From assembly GCA_027858355.1 (NCBI GenBank), contig JAQICW010000300.1:1-5183 (forward strand): 5,183 bases of DNA, given 5' to 3'. The DNA is from Desulfobacula sp. Lineage in GTDB: Bacteria; Desulfobacterota; Desulfobacteria; Desulfobacterales; Desulfobacteraceae. Of this stretch, positions 301 to 5,183 are shown in pieces; position 1 is the stretch's first letter, and each line of letters begins with the position of its first letter. The translations under genes were made by a program, and so were the position numbers. Under the pieces are notes generated by a model. It had not been told where the DNA came from. It worked only from the letters and a program-made list of their open reading frames with translations, and did not search any database.

Positions 301-410
301 AGATTGATGATTATCGTAAAATTATGTTATCTTACAGACGAAAAATGAAAATGGAAGAATAAAGACATCTATCAAACATTGAAATATAAAAAATATTAAG
401 GATATTTATT

Positions 411-415
411 GGGAG
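411..415 (+). promoter_or_regulatory. Ribosome-binding site that decides the start at 421
   Basis: GGGAG lies 5 nt upstream of the ATG at 421. A TTG at 409 is in frame and has AAGGA (398-402) 6 nt before it, so it could add four residues. The ATG has the stronger start codon and a good Shine-Dalgarno match, so it is preferred. Confidence 0.55.
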
Positions 416-420
416 CTCCA

Positions 421-1284
421 ATGACATCAAAAAATCATAATATTAATAAAGATTTTGCATTCAGGGTTTTGCCGGTAATTGAGAAACAGGTTTTCAGGAT
501 GGGTATTGCCGGAAACTACGGGATAGATTCTTCTGATATCGAATGGGCCGCGGGCCAGGGAGCCAATTACTGGGTATGGGGTGCTAGTTTTAAAAAGGTT
601 ACAGCAGGGATTAAGGAAGTAATCAGAAAAGATAGAGAGAATAATGTGGTGGCCCTGCTTGGTTGGGGATTTTTTGGCTGGCAGGTGCGCCAAAGTATTG
701 AAAAAGCTTTGCGCAAATTAAATACGGATTACCTGGATGTTTTCAAACTTGGGTGGCTGGGGCGGACATCAGCTTATAGCCGTGGTATTATCGATTCATT
801 GTTGAAACTTAAACAGGAAGGTAAAATCAGGGCTATTGGAACCAGCATCCATGATCGGAAACGGGCCGGAGAATTGGCCCTGGACTCAGAATTGGATCTG
901 CTGATGATCCGTTATAACGCCAAACACACGGGAGCAGAAGAGGATATTTTCCCGTATTTAAAAAACCGGAATCCTTGTGTTATCAGTTATACGGCATTGG
1001 CCTGGCAGCAGTTAATCAACCCTGTGAAAAATATTGAAATGCCTCCCTGGCCGGGTAGCAAGGAAGAAGTTAAGATACCTCCTATGACACCTGAACTCTG
1101 CTATAAATTTGTTTTGTCAAACCCTCACATTCACCTGGTTCTGACCGGTCCGAAAAACAGGGAGCAGTTGATGACAAATTTTCGAGCAATACAGCAGGGG
1201 GCTTTAACTCCGGAAGAATTGGACTGGATTCGACAATATGGAAAACTGATCAGATCAAAGAAAAAATTTGATTACATCAAATAG
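421..1284 (+). CDS. Aldo/keto-reductase-fold protein lacking the canonical catalytic tetrad
   Basis: This 287-residue protein, presumably cytoplasmic, has the layout of the aldo/keto reductase superfamily. Residues about 93-109 (SIEKALRKLNTDYLDVF) match the family's helix and strand before the active-site histidine. GKIRAIGTS (134-142) matches the strand that usually reads IRAIGVSN. TGPKNREQL (243-251) followed by N253 resembles the C-terminal NADPH-phosphate loop. The catalytic positions are changed. Alignment of GANYWVWGASF (47-57) to the usual GVNYFDTADVY puts Val52 at the Asp position and Phe57 at the catalytic Tyr. VVALLG (76-81) has Gly81 where Lys is expected. KLGW (109-112) has Gly111 where His is expected. 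Length and frame are intact, so this is not a decayed gene. I recall similar AKR-like proteins with WG in place of the DTA motif in deltaproteobacteria, so the change may define a subfamily. The substrate is unknown. It may have altered chemistry or bind a nucleotide without reduction. It is convergent with the ligase gene and is not in an operon with visible neighbours. Confidence 0.85.
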   Translation: MTSKNHNINKDFAFRVLPVIEKQVFRMGIAGNYGIDSSDIEWAAGQGANYWVWGASFKKVTAGIKEVIRKDRENNVVALLGWGFFGWQVRQSIEKALRKLNTDYLDVFKLGWLGRTSAYSRGIIDSLLKLKQEGKIRAIGTSIHDRKRAGELALDSELDLLMIRYNAKHTGAEEDIFPYLKNRNPCVISYTALAWQQLINPVKNIEMPPWPGSKEEVKIPPMTPELCYKFVLSNPHIHLVLTGPKNREQLMTNFRAIQQGALTPEELDWIRQYGKLIRSKKKFDYIK

Positions 1285-1303: not shown

Positions 1304-1330
1304 TATTCAATAATTTTGAATAACCCTTTT
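1304..1330 (+). terminator. Weak terminator-like hairpin between convergent genes
   Basis: TATTCAA (1304-1310) and TTGAATA (1316-1322) form a 7-bp stem around a 5-nt loop, followed after three bases by TTTTT (1326-1330). It lies 20 bp past the reductase stop codon and overlaps the last codons of the opposing ligase gene. The stem is almost all A/T, so it would be weak. It can serve only the plus-strand transcript, because no T-run follows on the other strand. Confidence 0.25.
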
Positions 1331-2638
1331 TGCTTTTCCCATTTTGCTGCGTTCTATTGAGTCGGGTTTTACGAGCTCGATAATTCCTTTAAAGTTCAAG
1401 GTTTCTTTAATTTTTTTCTCAATCTTTAATTTCAGATCTATCATCTTATCCGGTGTGATGTGTATTCCATGCTCCACTTTTATATCAAGGCCCGTATATG
1501 GGGAAGGGTGGTTCAGAATGATCTGGAATTCGCCTGTTACTTCGGGAACTATATCTTCCAGGACCATAGCAATGCCGTTGGGGAAGACATTGATGCCTTT
1601 TACATGGAGCATGTCATCAGCTCTGCCCACAATCCTGAACCGGAATCCTGTCCTGCCACACTCACACGGGCCTGTTTCAAGAATTTCCATGAGATCTGAT
1701 GTCTGGTATCTGACCAGGGGCTGAGCTTCTTTTTTTAGATGGGTCAGAACCATTTCACCGACGGCTCCCTGTGTAATCGGAATATCTTTCAAGGTCAGAG
1801 GATCAATGAGCTGGACAAGCAATGCGCCCTGCCCCAGGAAATGGAGTTTGTAATTGTCCAGGCAAACGGAAGCAAAATTACACAATACATCTGAAACCCC
1901 ATAGTTGGCGTTCTGGGCCTTCATTCCCCAGGTGGTTTCTATTCGTTCCCTATATACGGGATTTTCAAGCCCGGGCTCTCCGCCAAACAATCCAAGTTTC
2001 AGGCCAAGTTCAGCCGGGTCCATGTTGAATTCGGTTTTAATTATTTTTTCCAGGTGTCTGGGGTAGGATGGTGTGGAGGAAATGGCATTTATTCCGGCGT
2101 CTTTGATGACCTGGATCAATTGTCTGGAATTACCGACCCCAAAAGGGATGACAGTGGCACCGGTTGTTTCCAGATTGGCATGATCCGTATATCCGCCCAT
2201 CCACATGCAATAATTCAGGCAGTGAACAACACGATGGTGGGGACGCAGGCCTCCTGCCCAAAATGCCCTGGCACCGCAATTGTGGGTCAGGTCTAAATCC
2301 TGTTTTGTCAAAGCGGTATAGATAAAGCTGCCAGTGGTACCGGACGTCCGGTGAACCCGGCTGACTTTTTCAGCAGGGGCCGCCAGAAAGTCACCAAACG
2401 GTGCCAATCTTTTCTGGGAATCTCGCAACTCCTGTTTGGTGGTAAAGGGAAGAAGTGCAAGATCTTTAACATCCTTTATTTTATCTTTTGTAATGCCGGC
2501 CTTTGAAAATTTATTCTGGTACATTTTGCTGTGCCCGTATACATACTCAATCTGGTCGAGAAGAAGGGATTTCTCCAGTTTTTCCTGGTCTGATGCAGAT
2601 ATGGATTCCATATCCGGATTAAACATTGTCTGTTCCAT
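1307..2638 (-). CDS. Phenylacetate-CoA ligase-family (PaaK-type) acid-CoA ligase
   Basis: This 443-residue protein is a member of the adenylate-forming (ANL) superfamily and would activate a carboxylic acid with ATP and CoA, through an acyl-AMP, to an acyl-CoA in the cytoplasm. The ATP-binding loop RTSGTTG is at 97-103. FGGEPG (218-223) and NYGVSD (244-249) fit the adenine-binding region; PaaK proteins usually have YGxSE, so Asp replaces Glu here. YQTSDL (311-316) carries the ribose-binding Asp. CECGRTGFR (325-333) followed by IVGRADDMLHVKGINVFP (336-353) is the hinge typical of PaaK. KMGKAKR (432-438) near the end carries the lysine of the C-terminal domain. Length is normal for PaaK (about 430-440). 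The ATG at 2638 has GGGAG (2648-2644) 5 nt before it. It is the second gene of an operon with the hydratase, 44 bp downstream of it. The substrate may be aromatic (phenylacetate, benzoate-like) or another short acid; family motifs do not settle this, so no gene symbol is given. Confidence 0.9.
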   Translation of the reverse strand: MEQTMFNPDMESISASDQEKLEKSLLLDQIEYVYGHSKMYQNKFSKAGITKDKIKDVKDLALLPFTTKQELRDSQKRLAPFGDFLAAPAEKVSRVHRTSGTTGSFIYTALTKQDLDLTHNCGARAFWAGGLRPHHRVVHCLNYCMWMGGYTDHANLETTGATVIPFGVGNSRQLIQVIKDAGINAISSTPSYPRHLEKIIKTEFNMDPAELGLKLGLFGGEPGLENPVYRERIETTWGMKAQNANYGVSDVLCNFASVCLDNYKLHFLGQGALLVQLIDPLTLKDIPITQGAVGEMVLTHLKKEAQPLVRYQTSDLMEILETGPCECGRTGFRFRIVGRADDMLHVKGINVFPNGIAMVLEDIVPEVTGEFQIILNHPSPYTGLDIKVEHGIHITPDKMIDLKLKIEKKIKETLNFKGIIELVKPDSIERSKMGKAKRVIQNY

Positions 2639-2682
2639 TTTTTCTCCCGTGATGTATACTCATTCTATAAAACCGGCCTGGT

Positions 2683-3447
2683 TTATTTTTCTTTCATTTC
2701 CTTGAGCCGTTTTTCCACAAATTCTGTCCCGCTTTGGGCACATATGATCAAATGGCTTTTTTCAAGTTCCATGATTTGATCAAAACTGGCCTCCAGGCCC
2801 TGATCAAGAGCAGTTCGTGACAGGCTGGTGGCAAGAGGTGAACGGCTTGCAATTTTTTCGGCCATGGCCATTGATTCTGTCATGAGATCTTCAGATGCCA
2901 CCACCTTATTTACAAGACCGATTCTTTGTGCTTCAAATGCATCAATGAAATCTCCGGTTAATACCAGTTCTTTGGCTTTACCCAGCCCCACAAGATGGGG
3001 TAATAGTTTTGTACCGGCATTTGTAACTGTCATGCCCACCGTGGTTTCTGGAAATCCTAACACAGCAGTTTCAGCAGCAATCCGGATGTCACATCCCATG
3101 GCAAACTCGCATCCGCCGCCCAGAGCATATCCGGAAATTGCTGCAATAATTGGTTTGCCAAGTTTCATGGTCATGCGCTGGACGTCCTGGAGTCTTTGGG
3201 CCTCATCCATCCATTGTTCCATGCTTTTGCCGGAAGCCGTCTCTTTTAGATCCTCACCCGCGCAAAAGGCTTTTCCTTCTCCAGTGAGGATAATCACCCG
3301 TGCTTTTGTATCCTGTCTTGCCCTGTCAAGCTGTTTCATAAACCCTTTGAGCAGATCAAGATTAATGGCATTGAGGCGGTGGGGGCGGTTAAGGGTAATA
3401 ATTCCGACATCCTTTTGTCGGTGGTACAATACTGTTTTGTTTTCCAT
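2683..3447 (-). CDS. Enoyl-CoA hydratase/isomerase family (crotonase) protein
   Basis: From the preferred ATG at 3447 this is a 254-residue crotonase-fold enzyme, the usual length for the family, acting on a CoA thioester in the cytoplasm. NRPHRLNAIN (20-29) is the N-terminal signature. AFCAGEDLKE (60-69) supplies the first oxyanion-hole backbone position. GYALGGGCEFAMGCD (106-120) supplies the second and carries Glu114. GFPETTVGM (131-139) carries Glu134. The two glutamates match the acid/base pair of classic enoyl-CoA hydratases, so hydratase activity is likely, though isomerases and related lyases share the fold. After the second Glu the common PGAGGT loop is TVTNAGT, a modest departure. 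The ATG at 3459 would add four residues but has no Shine-Dalgarno. This is the first gene of the operon with the CoA ligase, which suggests beta-oxidation-like processing of the acid the ligase activates. Substrate unknown. Confidence 0.9.
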   Translation of the reverse strand: MENKTVLYHRQKDVGIITLNRPHRLNAINLDLLKGFMKQLDRARQDTKARVIILTGEGKAFCAGEDLKETASGKSMEQWMDEAQRLQDVQRMTMKLGKPIIAAISGYALGGGCEFAMGCDIRIAAETAVLGFPETTVGMTVTNAGTKLLPHLVGLGKAKELVLTGDFIDAFEAQRIGLVNKVVASEDLMTESMAMAEKIASRSPLATSLSRTALDQGLEASFDQIMELEKSHLIICAQSGTEFVEKRLKEMKEK

Positions 3448-3449
3448 AT

Positions 3450-3457
3450 TCCTCTCC
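3450..3457 (-). promoter_or_regulatory. Ribosome-binding site that decides the hydratase start
   Basis: On the minus strand GGAGAGGA precedes the ATG at 3447, with the GGAG core (3457-3454) 6 nt away. This purine run overlaps the end of the other in-frame ATG at 3459, which has only an A/T-rich sequence upstream. The shorter start is therefore preferred. Confidence 0.6.
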
Positions 3458-3475
3458 ATAAAATTGAGTTATCAC

Positions 3476-3504
3476 AATCTATGTTGATGTCTGGTTTATG
3501 TCAA
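3476..3504 (-). promoter_or_regulatory. Sigma70-like promoter of the hydratase-ligase operon
   Basis: On the minus strand a perfect -35 box TTGACA (3504-3499) is followed after exactly 17 bp by TAGATT (3481-3476), which matches four of six -10 positions. The start of transcription would fall near 3469, giving a leader of about 20 nt before the ATG at 3447. Confidence 0.5.
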
Positions 3505-3539
3505 ACACAAATAATTTGAATGGTGTTTGGAGCAAATGA

Positions 3540-3581
3540 AAAATTATCGGAAATACAAATATTGGTAATATCGATAATTTT
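3540..3581. repeat. Ten-bp inverted repeat in the divergent control region
   Basis: AAAATTATCG (3540-3549) is repeated in inverted orientation as CGATAATTTT (3572-3581), with 22 bp between the arms and 32 bp between arm centres, about three helical turns. The match extends loosely outward: the left side begins GGAGCAAA and the right side, read inverted, begins GGAGAGCAAA. A smaller inverted repeat, ATATT-GGT-AATAT (3559-3571), lies between the arms. It sits between the two divergent promoters, a plausible place for a regulator to bind. Chance in AT-rich DNA is a real alternative. Confidence 0.35.
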
Positions 3582-3634
3582 GCTCTCCTATTTTTAAGAT
3601 TCCCATAAAAATATTTGTTATTAGCCGCAATCGC

Positions 3635-3663
3635 TTGACATGTAATTGTTCGCATATTAAAAA
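3635..3663 (+). promoter_or_regulatory. Sigma70-like promoter candidate for the helicase gene
   Basis: A perfect TTGACA (3635-3640) is followed after 17 bp by TAAAAA (3658-3663), which matches four of six -10 positions. Transcription would start near 3670, leaving a leader of about 65 nt before the ATG at 3735. The seven bases AATCGCT occur at 3629-3635, touching the -35 box, and again at 3669-3675, around the start site, and could bind a repressor. The -10 box is poor. Confidence 0.4.
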
Positions 3664-3734
3664 AAACAAATCGCTAAACTAATTTTGTATCTGCCAATAA
3701 TGATATTTAAGTGGCAACCTGAAATAAGGATAAG

Positions 3735-5183
3735 ATGAGCATAGCATATTCAATCATAGCTCCTGGTACAAGGATTGTCATACGAGATTCTGAGTGGATC
3801 GTACGAAGAGTTGATAATACATCAACCGGGGGCCAGGCGCTTCATGTGATTGGCATATCCGAACTGGTTAAGGACAAAGAAGCCATTTTTCTGGATGAAA
3901 TAGAAAAAAAGATTGAGATCCTTGATCCTGCCGAAACTAAATTAGTTCAAGATAATTCAAGTTCATATCAGGCCTCATTGTTATATATAGAGAGCCTTTT
4001 GAGGAAGACACCACCCACAGATGAAAATTTGTATATCGGTCATAAGGGAGCCATGGATTCTGTCCCCTACCAGCTTGACCCGGCGATTCAGGCATTAAAA
4101 CAACCCAGACAAAGGATATTGATTTCAGATGCAGTCGGGCTTGGGAAAACTCTGGAAGCAGGTATCCTGCTCAGTGAGCTTATCAGGCGCGGCAAAGGGA
4201 AACGCATCCTTGTCCTTGCCGTAAAAAGCATGCTGACACAATTTCAGAAAGAAATGTGGGCAAGGTTTACCATCCCGTTGACCCGGCTTGATTCTTCCGG
4301 CATTCAACGTATCAGATCGCAGATTCCAACCAACCACAATCCTTTTTACTATTATGACAAATCCATTATTTCCATTGATACCTTAAAACAGGATATTGAG
4401 TACAGAACCTATATTGAAAACGCCTACTGGGATGTGATTGTCATTGACGAAGCCCATAATGTGGCCGAGAGAGGCAACAATTCTTCCCTTCGGGCCAAAC
4501 TTGCCAAGCTTTTGTCCAGAAGATCAGATACATTGATCATGCTGTCTGCAACACCCCATGACGGGAAGGCAAAAAGCTTTGCCAGCCTGATGAATATGCT
4601 GGACCCGACTGCAATTGCCAATCCTGAGGATTATGGACCGGAAGATATCAAAGGCCTTTATATCAGGCGATTTAAAAAAGATATTCAAGCTCAGGTCGAA
4701 TCTGCATTCAAGGAAAGACAGATTAGCGTTGCCCGTTGTGAGGCAGGGTTAGAAGAAGAAGCGGCTTTTGATGTGTTCACAAAATTAAAATTTGCATCCA
4801 TTGATCAGAAAAGAACCGGGGGGCAGCTTTTTAAAACCACCCTTGAAAAATCCCTTTTTTCAAGTCCTGCAGCCTGTCTTGATACCATTGGCAATAGAAT
4901 TGAACGGCTTAACAAAACAGGAGATGAAAGATACCATAGGGATATTGAATCCCTGCAGGAATTGCACGAAACCGTCCGGCGGATTTCATCAAAAGTCTTT
5001 TCTAAATATCAGAAATTATTGGTAACGATAAAAGACAGCTATAAAGGATTTGGCTGGACCGGAAAGGATAAGACAGACCGCCTGGTTATTTTCACCGAAC
5101 GAATCGAAACTCTCTTTTTTTTACATTCCAGTCTTTTAAGGGATTTGAACTTAAAATCGGACCAGATTAACATTCTCCATGGT
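3735..5183 (+). CDS. drmD: SNF2-type DEAH-box helicase, DrmD-like (class 1 DISARM), cut by the right edge
   Basis: The frame is open from the ATG at 3735 to the window end: 483 codons with no stop, so the gene is 3'-partial. TAAGGA (3725-3730) precedes the ATG by 4 nt. Residues 1-100 are an N-terminal region beginning with a PGTR...WIVRRV segment, as in this helicase family. DAVGLGKT (132-139) is the Walker A motif with Lys138 and Thr139. VIVIDEAH (234-241) is the DEAH-box Walker B with Asp238 and Glu239. SATPHDG (271-277) is motif III. IRRFKKDI (310-317) fits the linker of SNF2-like proteins. VIFTERIETL (451-460) starts the C-terminal helicase lobe, whose remaining motifs lie beyond the edge. 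The family segments YIGHKGAMDSVPYQLDPA, FTIPLTRLDSSGIQR and SFASLMNMLDPTAIA strongly resemble, from memory, DrmD of class 1 DISARM. That system restricts phage DNA, and drmD is its first gene. The position after a promoter-bearing gap fits this. Alternatives are a helicase of another defence or modification system, or a standalone SNF2 helicase. Confidence 0.8.
   Translation, partial: MSIAYSIIAPGTRIVIRDSEWIVRRVDNTSTGGQALHVIGISELVKDKEAIFLDEIEKKIEILDPAETKLVQDNSSSYQASLLYIESLLRKTPPTDENLYIGHKGAMDSVPYQLDPAIQALKQPRQRILISDAVGLGKTLEAGILLSELIRRGKGKRILVLAVKSMLTQFQKEMWARFTIPLTRLDSSGIQRIRSQIPTNHNPFYYYDKSIISIDTLKQDIEYRTYIENAYWDVIVIDEAHNVAERGNNSSLRAKLAKLLSRRSDTLIMLSATPHDGKAKSFASLMNMLDPTAIANPEDYGPEDIKGLYIRRFKKDIQAQVESAFKERQISVARCEAGLEEEAAFDVFTKLKFASIDQKRTGGQLFKTTLEKSLFSSPAACLDTIGNRIERLNKTGDERYHRDIESLQELHETVRRISSKVFSKYQKLLVTIKDSYKGFGWTGKDKTDRLVIFTERIETLFFLHSSLLRDLNLKSDQINILHG

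Follow-up and report, generated by a model that had tools for sequence, protein, structure and literature searches.

The contig JAQICW010000300.1 of the Desulfobacula sp. assembly GCA_027858355.1 (5,183 nucleotides; this whole stretch of DNA is referred to as the window) ends within an open reading frame (ORF) on the plus strand that begins with an ATG at position 3735, encodes 483 amino acids up to position 5183 and runs past the right edge. We are highly confident that the frame represents the 5' half of armA, with which an ARMADA Type II operon of a Desulfobacula-like sulphate reducer begins, ARMADA being an anti-phage system recently described as related to DISARM (Bell et al., bioRxiv 2025, PMC12458937). 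ARMADA Type II is a known kind of system, to which the window alone adds a new member; the claim of a variant made below, in which further defence genes lie between armB and armC, rests on the relatives.

When the stretch was shuffled 500 times by mononucleotide, open frames in the six reading frames reached at most 176 codons, compared with 483 in the window. An earlier note, made from the sequence alone, had described intact SNF2/DEAH motifs, and these are present at exactly the residues it gave, all on the plus strand: Walker A, DAVGLGKT, at residues 132-139 (4128-4151); Walker B, DEAH, at residues 238-241 (4446-4457); and SAT, helicase motif III, at residues 271-273 (4545-4553), as read in the translated frame and the alignment. 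Pfam finds the domains SNF2-rel_dom, ResIII and DEAD. Scanning genome contigs yielded 105 relatives of the window protein, of which the best 80 were kept (54-92% identity to it), and viral contigs contributed two; loci are given L numbers below. The closest relative, L074, comes from a Desulfobacula metagenome-assembled genome (MAG) and encodes a 951 amino acid protein that is 92% identical to the window frame, which thus covers about half of a protein of about 950 residues.

The earlier note had read the frame as DrmD, the helicase leading class 1 DISARM, and had proposed a profile search against DrmD and other models. The resemblance is real, in that DrmD is the top profile for the window frame in both libraries (PADLOC, 228 bits; NCBIfam, 230 bits, cut-off 610), but the identity does not hold: the full-length sister protein of L074, for which DrmD is still the top family, scores 341 bits with PADLOC and 353 bits with NCBIfam, far under the curated NCBIfam cut-off of 610. 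Among 198 genomes of the sister's phylum, five have a DrmD above that cut-off, at 980-1431 bits, and four, the sister genome included, have an ArmA-like match (E value up to 1e-120). The window protein is 29-34% identical to six DrmDs (those five and an annotated cyanobacterial DrmD). A first tree had mixed outgroups and was rerun with DrmDs over the cut-off; 21 ArmA sequences including the window and the six DrmDs then fell on opposite sides of a branch with 100/100 support. The window lies on a short branch beside L074, and the tool flags long branches that meet at the Haematobacter ArmA.

Identity to the E. coli ArmA is 62%, and both ArmA residues mutated in that species are kept in the window, K136 as K138 in Walker A and D236 as D238 in Walker B; the main text of the preprint reports that mutation of K136 abolished defence (PMC12458937). 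As in ARMADA Type II, the first helicase is BrxHII/RapA-like with Walker A and B intact. Among solved structures, ArmA has its best sequence match in RapA (105 bits), and BrxHII is matched at 223 bits; RapA works on RNA polymerase and BrxHII functions within BREX, and the operon context of both differs from that of ArmA. The proposal that the frame opens an anti-phage operon was correct, with armA of ARMADA Type II rather than drmD as its lead gene.

The operon in relatives and its armB-armC slot

In most relatives the operon has the order armA-armB-[cargo]-armC-armD. Both armA and armB were recognised in 75 of 84 loci, and several of the remaining loci end too soon to tell. The start of armB lies within 100 bp of armA in 70 of these 75; the five outliers are at 211, 223, 554 and 590 bp, plus L080 (-2194, an ORF-calling artefact). 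ArmB is a PglX-like methyltransferase with GxG and NPPW motifs, encoded directly after armA. Its top PADLOC model, matched over nearly the full length, is REase_MTase_IIG PDLC03614 (991 bits for L074 12847-17538 and 924 bits for L083 13533-18458), and annotation tools may accordingly report armB as a type IIG enzyme. We rejected a stand-alone type IIG enzyme since armB is bracketed by armA and armC.

Of the 40 genomes searched, 36 gave a match to ArmC (E value up to 1e-80). ArmC is a giant YprA/DruE-like helicase of about 2100 amino acids with the Pfam domains DEAD, Helicase_C and MZB. In PADLOC it matches DruE models best (349 bits, with the cut L083 protein), but Druantia III was rejected because armA and armB precede it. 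A GajB/UvrD-like helicase gene, armD, whose product has UvrD domains by Pfam, comes next after armC in 46 of the 48 stretches with at least 1 kb past armC, with gaps of no more than 156 bp. PDB sequence searches matched RapA, YprA and two helicases of about 2000 amino acids, and PcrA/UvrD. The relatives share with the E. coli Type II representative the ArmA ortholog, the A-B-C-D order, the catalytic residues and a UvrD-like ArmD, and differ in often having extra genes or entire systems between armB and armC.

Compared with class 1 DISARM (DrmD-DrmMI-DrmA-DrmB-DrmC), an SNF2-like helicase and a large adenine-type methyltransferase likewise lead the operon and DUF1998/MZB is present. The relatives, however, do not have separate DrmA and DrmB with a DrmC of the phospholipase D (PLD) type. 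Of the partners foreseen in the earlier note, the methyltransferase and a DUF1998 (MZB) helicase were found in the relatives, whereas the DrmA/DrmB split was not, MZB being fused to ArmC; the PLD-like DrmC also failed to appear, the last gene being the UvrD-like armD, and Pfam found no PLD domain in two ArmC and two ArmD proteins.

The note's hint that a new variant should be sought where additional genes occur was borne out in the relatives. In 35 of the 57 loci in which both ends of the armB-armC interval were seen (46 + 11 loci), the interval holds at least one ORF of at least 120 amino acids, or in 33 of 57 without the doubtful L080 (a 151 amino acid ORF) and L073 (a 253 amino acid ORF overlapping armB). 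The interval can be as long as 17.3 kb, whereas the A-B and C-D junctions remain tight. The loci were selected for their similarity to the window protein, not as a random survey. Left out of the count were L054 (with armB and armC on separate contigs), L009, L012, L013 and L046 (contigs that end before armC, with ArmC fragments on other contigs), the continuation pieces L114, L134 and L142, and loci with armB or armC cut, broken or absent; in L022 armC is broken. L069, with a 374 bp gap and only a 93 amino acid ORF, was scored as empty.

In the 46-locus set, 113 of 114 slot ORFs of at least 120 amino acids are co-directional with the operon. Among its 33 filled loci the first ORF begins at most 60 bp from the armB stop in 22, the end of the last one is at most 60 bp from armC in 19, and both hold in 14. 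Given this shared direction and the frequent closeness to both neighbours, the cargo is probably co-expressed with the operon. Pairs with and without cargo (L025 and L023; L049 and L045) retain the bases just 5' of the armC start, which places the insertion point between the armB stop and the armC ribosome-binding region. The slot is filled in all eight relatives of at least 64% identity that have it whole on one contig (L074, L001, L002, L058, L022, L072, L008 and L011), and for this reason the operon of the window very likely carries cargo as well, in a slot that lies past the right edge.

Many loci from gut Firmicutes have an empty slot. In 514 of the 518 E. coli genomes that gave a match, at least 80% of the armB-armC junction is covered by a single place, and the 40 matches listed all consist of one piece; from these alignments the E. 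coli slot looks empty, which may be why work in that species did not reveal it. Cargo is also present in strain-titled records that are not MAGs, namely Bowmanella pacifica (L016), Marinobacter sp. BW6 (L064), Lachnoclostridium sp. An196 (L045) and a Haematobacter massiliensis plasmid (L164), the last of which was found separately and has the same gene plan with a 282 amino acid slot protein. One Lachnospiraceae genome has two ARMADA II operons (L025 and L042), one with an empty slot and the other with two ORFs in it.

The slot of some relatives contains the complete gene set of Gabija or Zorya. That of the sister L074 encodes GajA (959 bits) and GajB (843 bits), hence a complete Gabija, and a Schlafen/AlbA_2-HATPase protein. 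The L047 slot holds Zorya I, with ZorC1 (772 bits) and ZorD1 (1502 bits) by profile and ZorA and ZorB by sequence clusters and the family tally. Homologs of the annotated E. coli ZorA2, ZorB2 and ZorE (33-55% identity) occur in the slots of L050, L056, L063 and L064, and L050 also has Zorya I-type genes by sequence clusters, named through the family tally and PADLOC profiles. Single-gene PADLOC matches were TmtA in L016 (737 bits), MkoA in L011 (206 bits) and L052 (290 bits), ZacB in L077 (353 bits), HEC-01A in L018 (315 bits), PD-Lambda-2_B in L001 (505 bits) and PDC-S31 in L023 (122 bits). In L014 AbiLi (332 bits) is followed by an RloB-like protein, and L072 has AbiLi/PDC-M38A (188 and 196 bits). 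Three slot proteins of L002 and one of 219 amino acids in L011 had no match with PADLOC at E values up to 1e-10 or Pfam up to 1e-3, and the slot proteins of L019 (533 amino acids), L024 and L029 had none with PADLOC at the strict value of 1e-30. One-by-one searches covered 20 of the 114 cargo proteins with PADLOC, besides GajA and that of L001, and 10 with Pfam; all 114 were tallied by family, with the top 25 families listed. Defence matches were counted within the slot alone.

Related slot proteins (L113 6671-8089 and L130 14119-15834, both minus strand) are found just 5' of armC in the distant loci L074 and L043. The L113 protein reads as a combination of Schlafen AlbA_2, HATPase_c_4 and a helix-turn-helix (HTH). 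These proteins are candidates for a regulator or an effector of the slot.

Exchange of the C-terminal part of ArmB

A second kind of variation lies within ArmB. L044 and L045 are 99, 98 and 98% identical in ArmA, ArmC and ArmD, and their ArmB proteins are 99-100% identical over the first approximately 900 alignment columns but only 30-39% over columns approximately 1100-1500. The same pattern was seen in L044/L049 and L001/L002, and in a broader form in L033/L035, ArmA, ArmC and ArmD being 91-99% identical in the close pairs that show it. It was absent from the close pairs L045/L049, L023/L025 and L052/L064. The idea that ArmB simply diverges fastest overall was rejected: over 903 pairs mean identity was 0.53 for ArmA, 0.50 for ArmB and 0.42 for ArmC, and ArmB identity was under that of ArmA in 734 pairs and under that of ArmC in just 69. 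The swap is thus confined to some close pairs.

The variable region of ArmB sits after the NPPW motif, where the target recognition regions of such enzymes usually lie, and we infer from this position that the swap would exchange sequence specificity. Swap and cargo are independent, since L045 and L049 have 95% identical ArmB with cargo in L045 only, while L044 and L049 both lack cargo and differ in the ArmB region.

Chromosomal site and left boundary

Upstream of armA the window carries an aldo/keto-reductase-like gene (409-1284, plus strand), a phenylacetate-CoA-ligase-like gene (1307-2638, minus strand) and an enoyl-CoA hydratase gene (2683-3459, minus strand), which belong to the chromosomal flank outside the system. 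Window 1304-3473 is 87% identical in DNA to the paaK-ech block of the sister genome (L172), where the aldo/keto-reductase-like gene is not beside the block and where the 12 kb fetched around it contained no ARMADA gene. The sister ARMADA operon adjoins a gene that we take to be nadB. The window and its sister therefore carry ARMADA at different chromosomal sites.

Homology to the sister ARMADA locus begins at position 3605, and the block 3605-3734 (plus strand) is conserved in L074 despite the differing neighbour genes and goes with armA. As paaK-ech homology stops at 3473, the unmatched stretch 3474-3604 between the two blocks most likely contains the left boundary of the ARMADA insertion. 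A 27-base match at 3575-3600 to the sister paaK-ech region (E value 0.18) was taken as chance. The promoter that the earlier note had placed upstream of the frame did not emerge from a scan of 3400-3800, which gave nothing above chance (two promoter-like sites, both on the minus strand, with 2.4 expected); a TTGACA at 3635, within the conserved upstream block, is by itself no evidence for one. An ARAGORN scan of the window found no tRNA.

On the Haematobacter plasmid a gene for a WYL-domain protein, a possible operon regulator, lies directly 5' of armA (L164 14067-14927); none is found beside the armA of the window. A Hydrogenimonas plasmid (L167 4848-12784) encodes a 1715 amino acid DEAD/DEAH helicase directly before an ArmA-like helicase, which resembles the gene order reported for ARMADA Type I.

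Alternative explanations and a proposed mechanism

That the frame begins a class 1 DISARM operon, being drmD followed by genes for DrmMI, DrmA, DrmB and DrmC, would fit the top DrmD profile in two libraries and a match of ArmB to a DrmMI model (190 bits); we nevertheless consider this extremely improbable. The system was filed as ARMADA Type II because the sister protein scores far under the cut-off that five DrmDs of its phylum exceed, because the window protein groups with its relatives in a clade separate from DrmD and is 62% identical to the E. coli ArmA and 92% to that of the sister, and because the relatives' operons continue with a fused MZB helicase and a UvrD-like last gene. There is also very little to recommend an orphan or decaying armA, left over from a lost system, as the account of the window. 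Such loci may exist, as armA is split in L006 (into 686 and 241 amino acids, with no armB detected), L022, L058 and L075 and partial in L068, and the genomes of L005, L006, L007 and L020 gave no ArmC; the frame of the window, in contrast, is uninterrupted with intact motifs, and armA and armB occur together in most loci. The five interrupted or partial armA genes may reflect decay or assembly error.

A more serious alternative, which we still regard as unlikely, is that the genes between armB and armC are unrelated defence-island insertions or chimeras of metagenome assembly and no feature of ARMADA. Defence islands gather genes anyway, many loci are MAGs with ORFs called mechanically, and the sample was chosen by similarity to the window protein. 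Yet long insertions occur at only one of the three junctions, the cargo is almost entirely co-directional and in 14 of 33 loci close to both neighbours, the strain-titled records (L016, L064, L045 and L164) show cargo too, and close relatives with and without it keep the bases before the armC start.

We favor, with a probability of roughly 0.7, a reading in which the operon is a modular immune chassis: its armB-armC slot would take co-directional defence genes up to whole systems, exchange of the ArmB C-terminal part would change specificity, and the nested systems would be expressed with the operon, probably as a second layer if ARMADA is evaded. Several observations weigh against the main explanation, armA of an ARMADA Type II operon with the mechanism set out below. 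DrmD remains the top-scoring profile family for the window frame and the full-length sister, and the window spans only half of armA, with armB-armD and any cargo past its right edge. ArmC was missing (E value up to 1e-80) from the four genomes named above among the 40 searched, and no armD was recognised after armC in L040 (L154) and L080 (L149) with about 7 kb in view in each; in L040 a 1103 amino acid ORF occupies the place of armD. Pfam (E value up to 1) found no Vsr-type nuclease in the ArmC of L105 or E. coli and did not detect the RelE part of ArmD; the RelE-like part is the preprint's claim, and its Vsr-type nuclease at the ArmC C-terminus came from structure models and profile searches (PMC12458937). 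According to the same main text, mutants of the ArmB S-adenosylmethionine (SAM) motif and of the ArmD Walker B showed only partial loss, and the methylation-based self/non-self step proposed below is itself putative.

As reported there for E. coli, defence requires all four genes, is non-abortive, and is abolished by mutating the ATPase motifs of ArmA or ArmC, the ArmD Walker A or the ArmB NPPW (PMC12458937). We hold to be moderately probable a model in which ArmB marks self DNA and ArmA and ArmC process DNA that is unmarked. ArmB would methylate adenine in a sequence-specific manner, at a self-marking site set by its swappable C-terminal part; ArmA, a RapA/BrxHII-like translocase, and ArmC, a YprA-like helicase, would recognise incoming DNA that is unmarked, translocate on it and cut it; and the UvrD-like helicase ArmD would complete the response. 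With the operon as chassis, the slot genes may add second-layer systems under the same transcription. Whether the cargo is functionally coupled to ARMADA is, in our estimate, evenly balanced.

The relatives show an architectural variant, the slot with nested defence genes, that is undescribed in the text of the preprint as searched, which calls the gene order A-B-C-D strict. That text mentions neither slot nor ArmB swap, although its supplements, outside the search, may mention the slot (PMC12458937). No paper on either was found in literature searches judged by titles, the beginnings of abstracts and passages of PMC13192584.

Filing the system as ARMADA and not as DISARM predicts other partners, no drmC and a non-abortive mechanism that has already been tested in E. 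coli. A labelling problem hides ARMADA systems, as PADLOC matches armB best to a type IIG restriction enzyme-methyltransferase. The slot shows immune systems stacked inside one operon, beyond side-by-side placement in an island. It is also a targeted route to new defence genes, since some slot proteins of close relatives have no PADLOC model (E value up to 1e-10).
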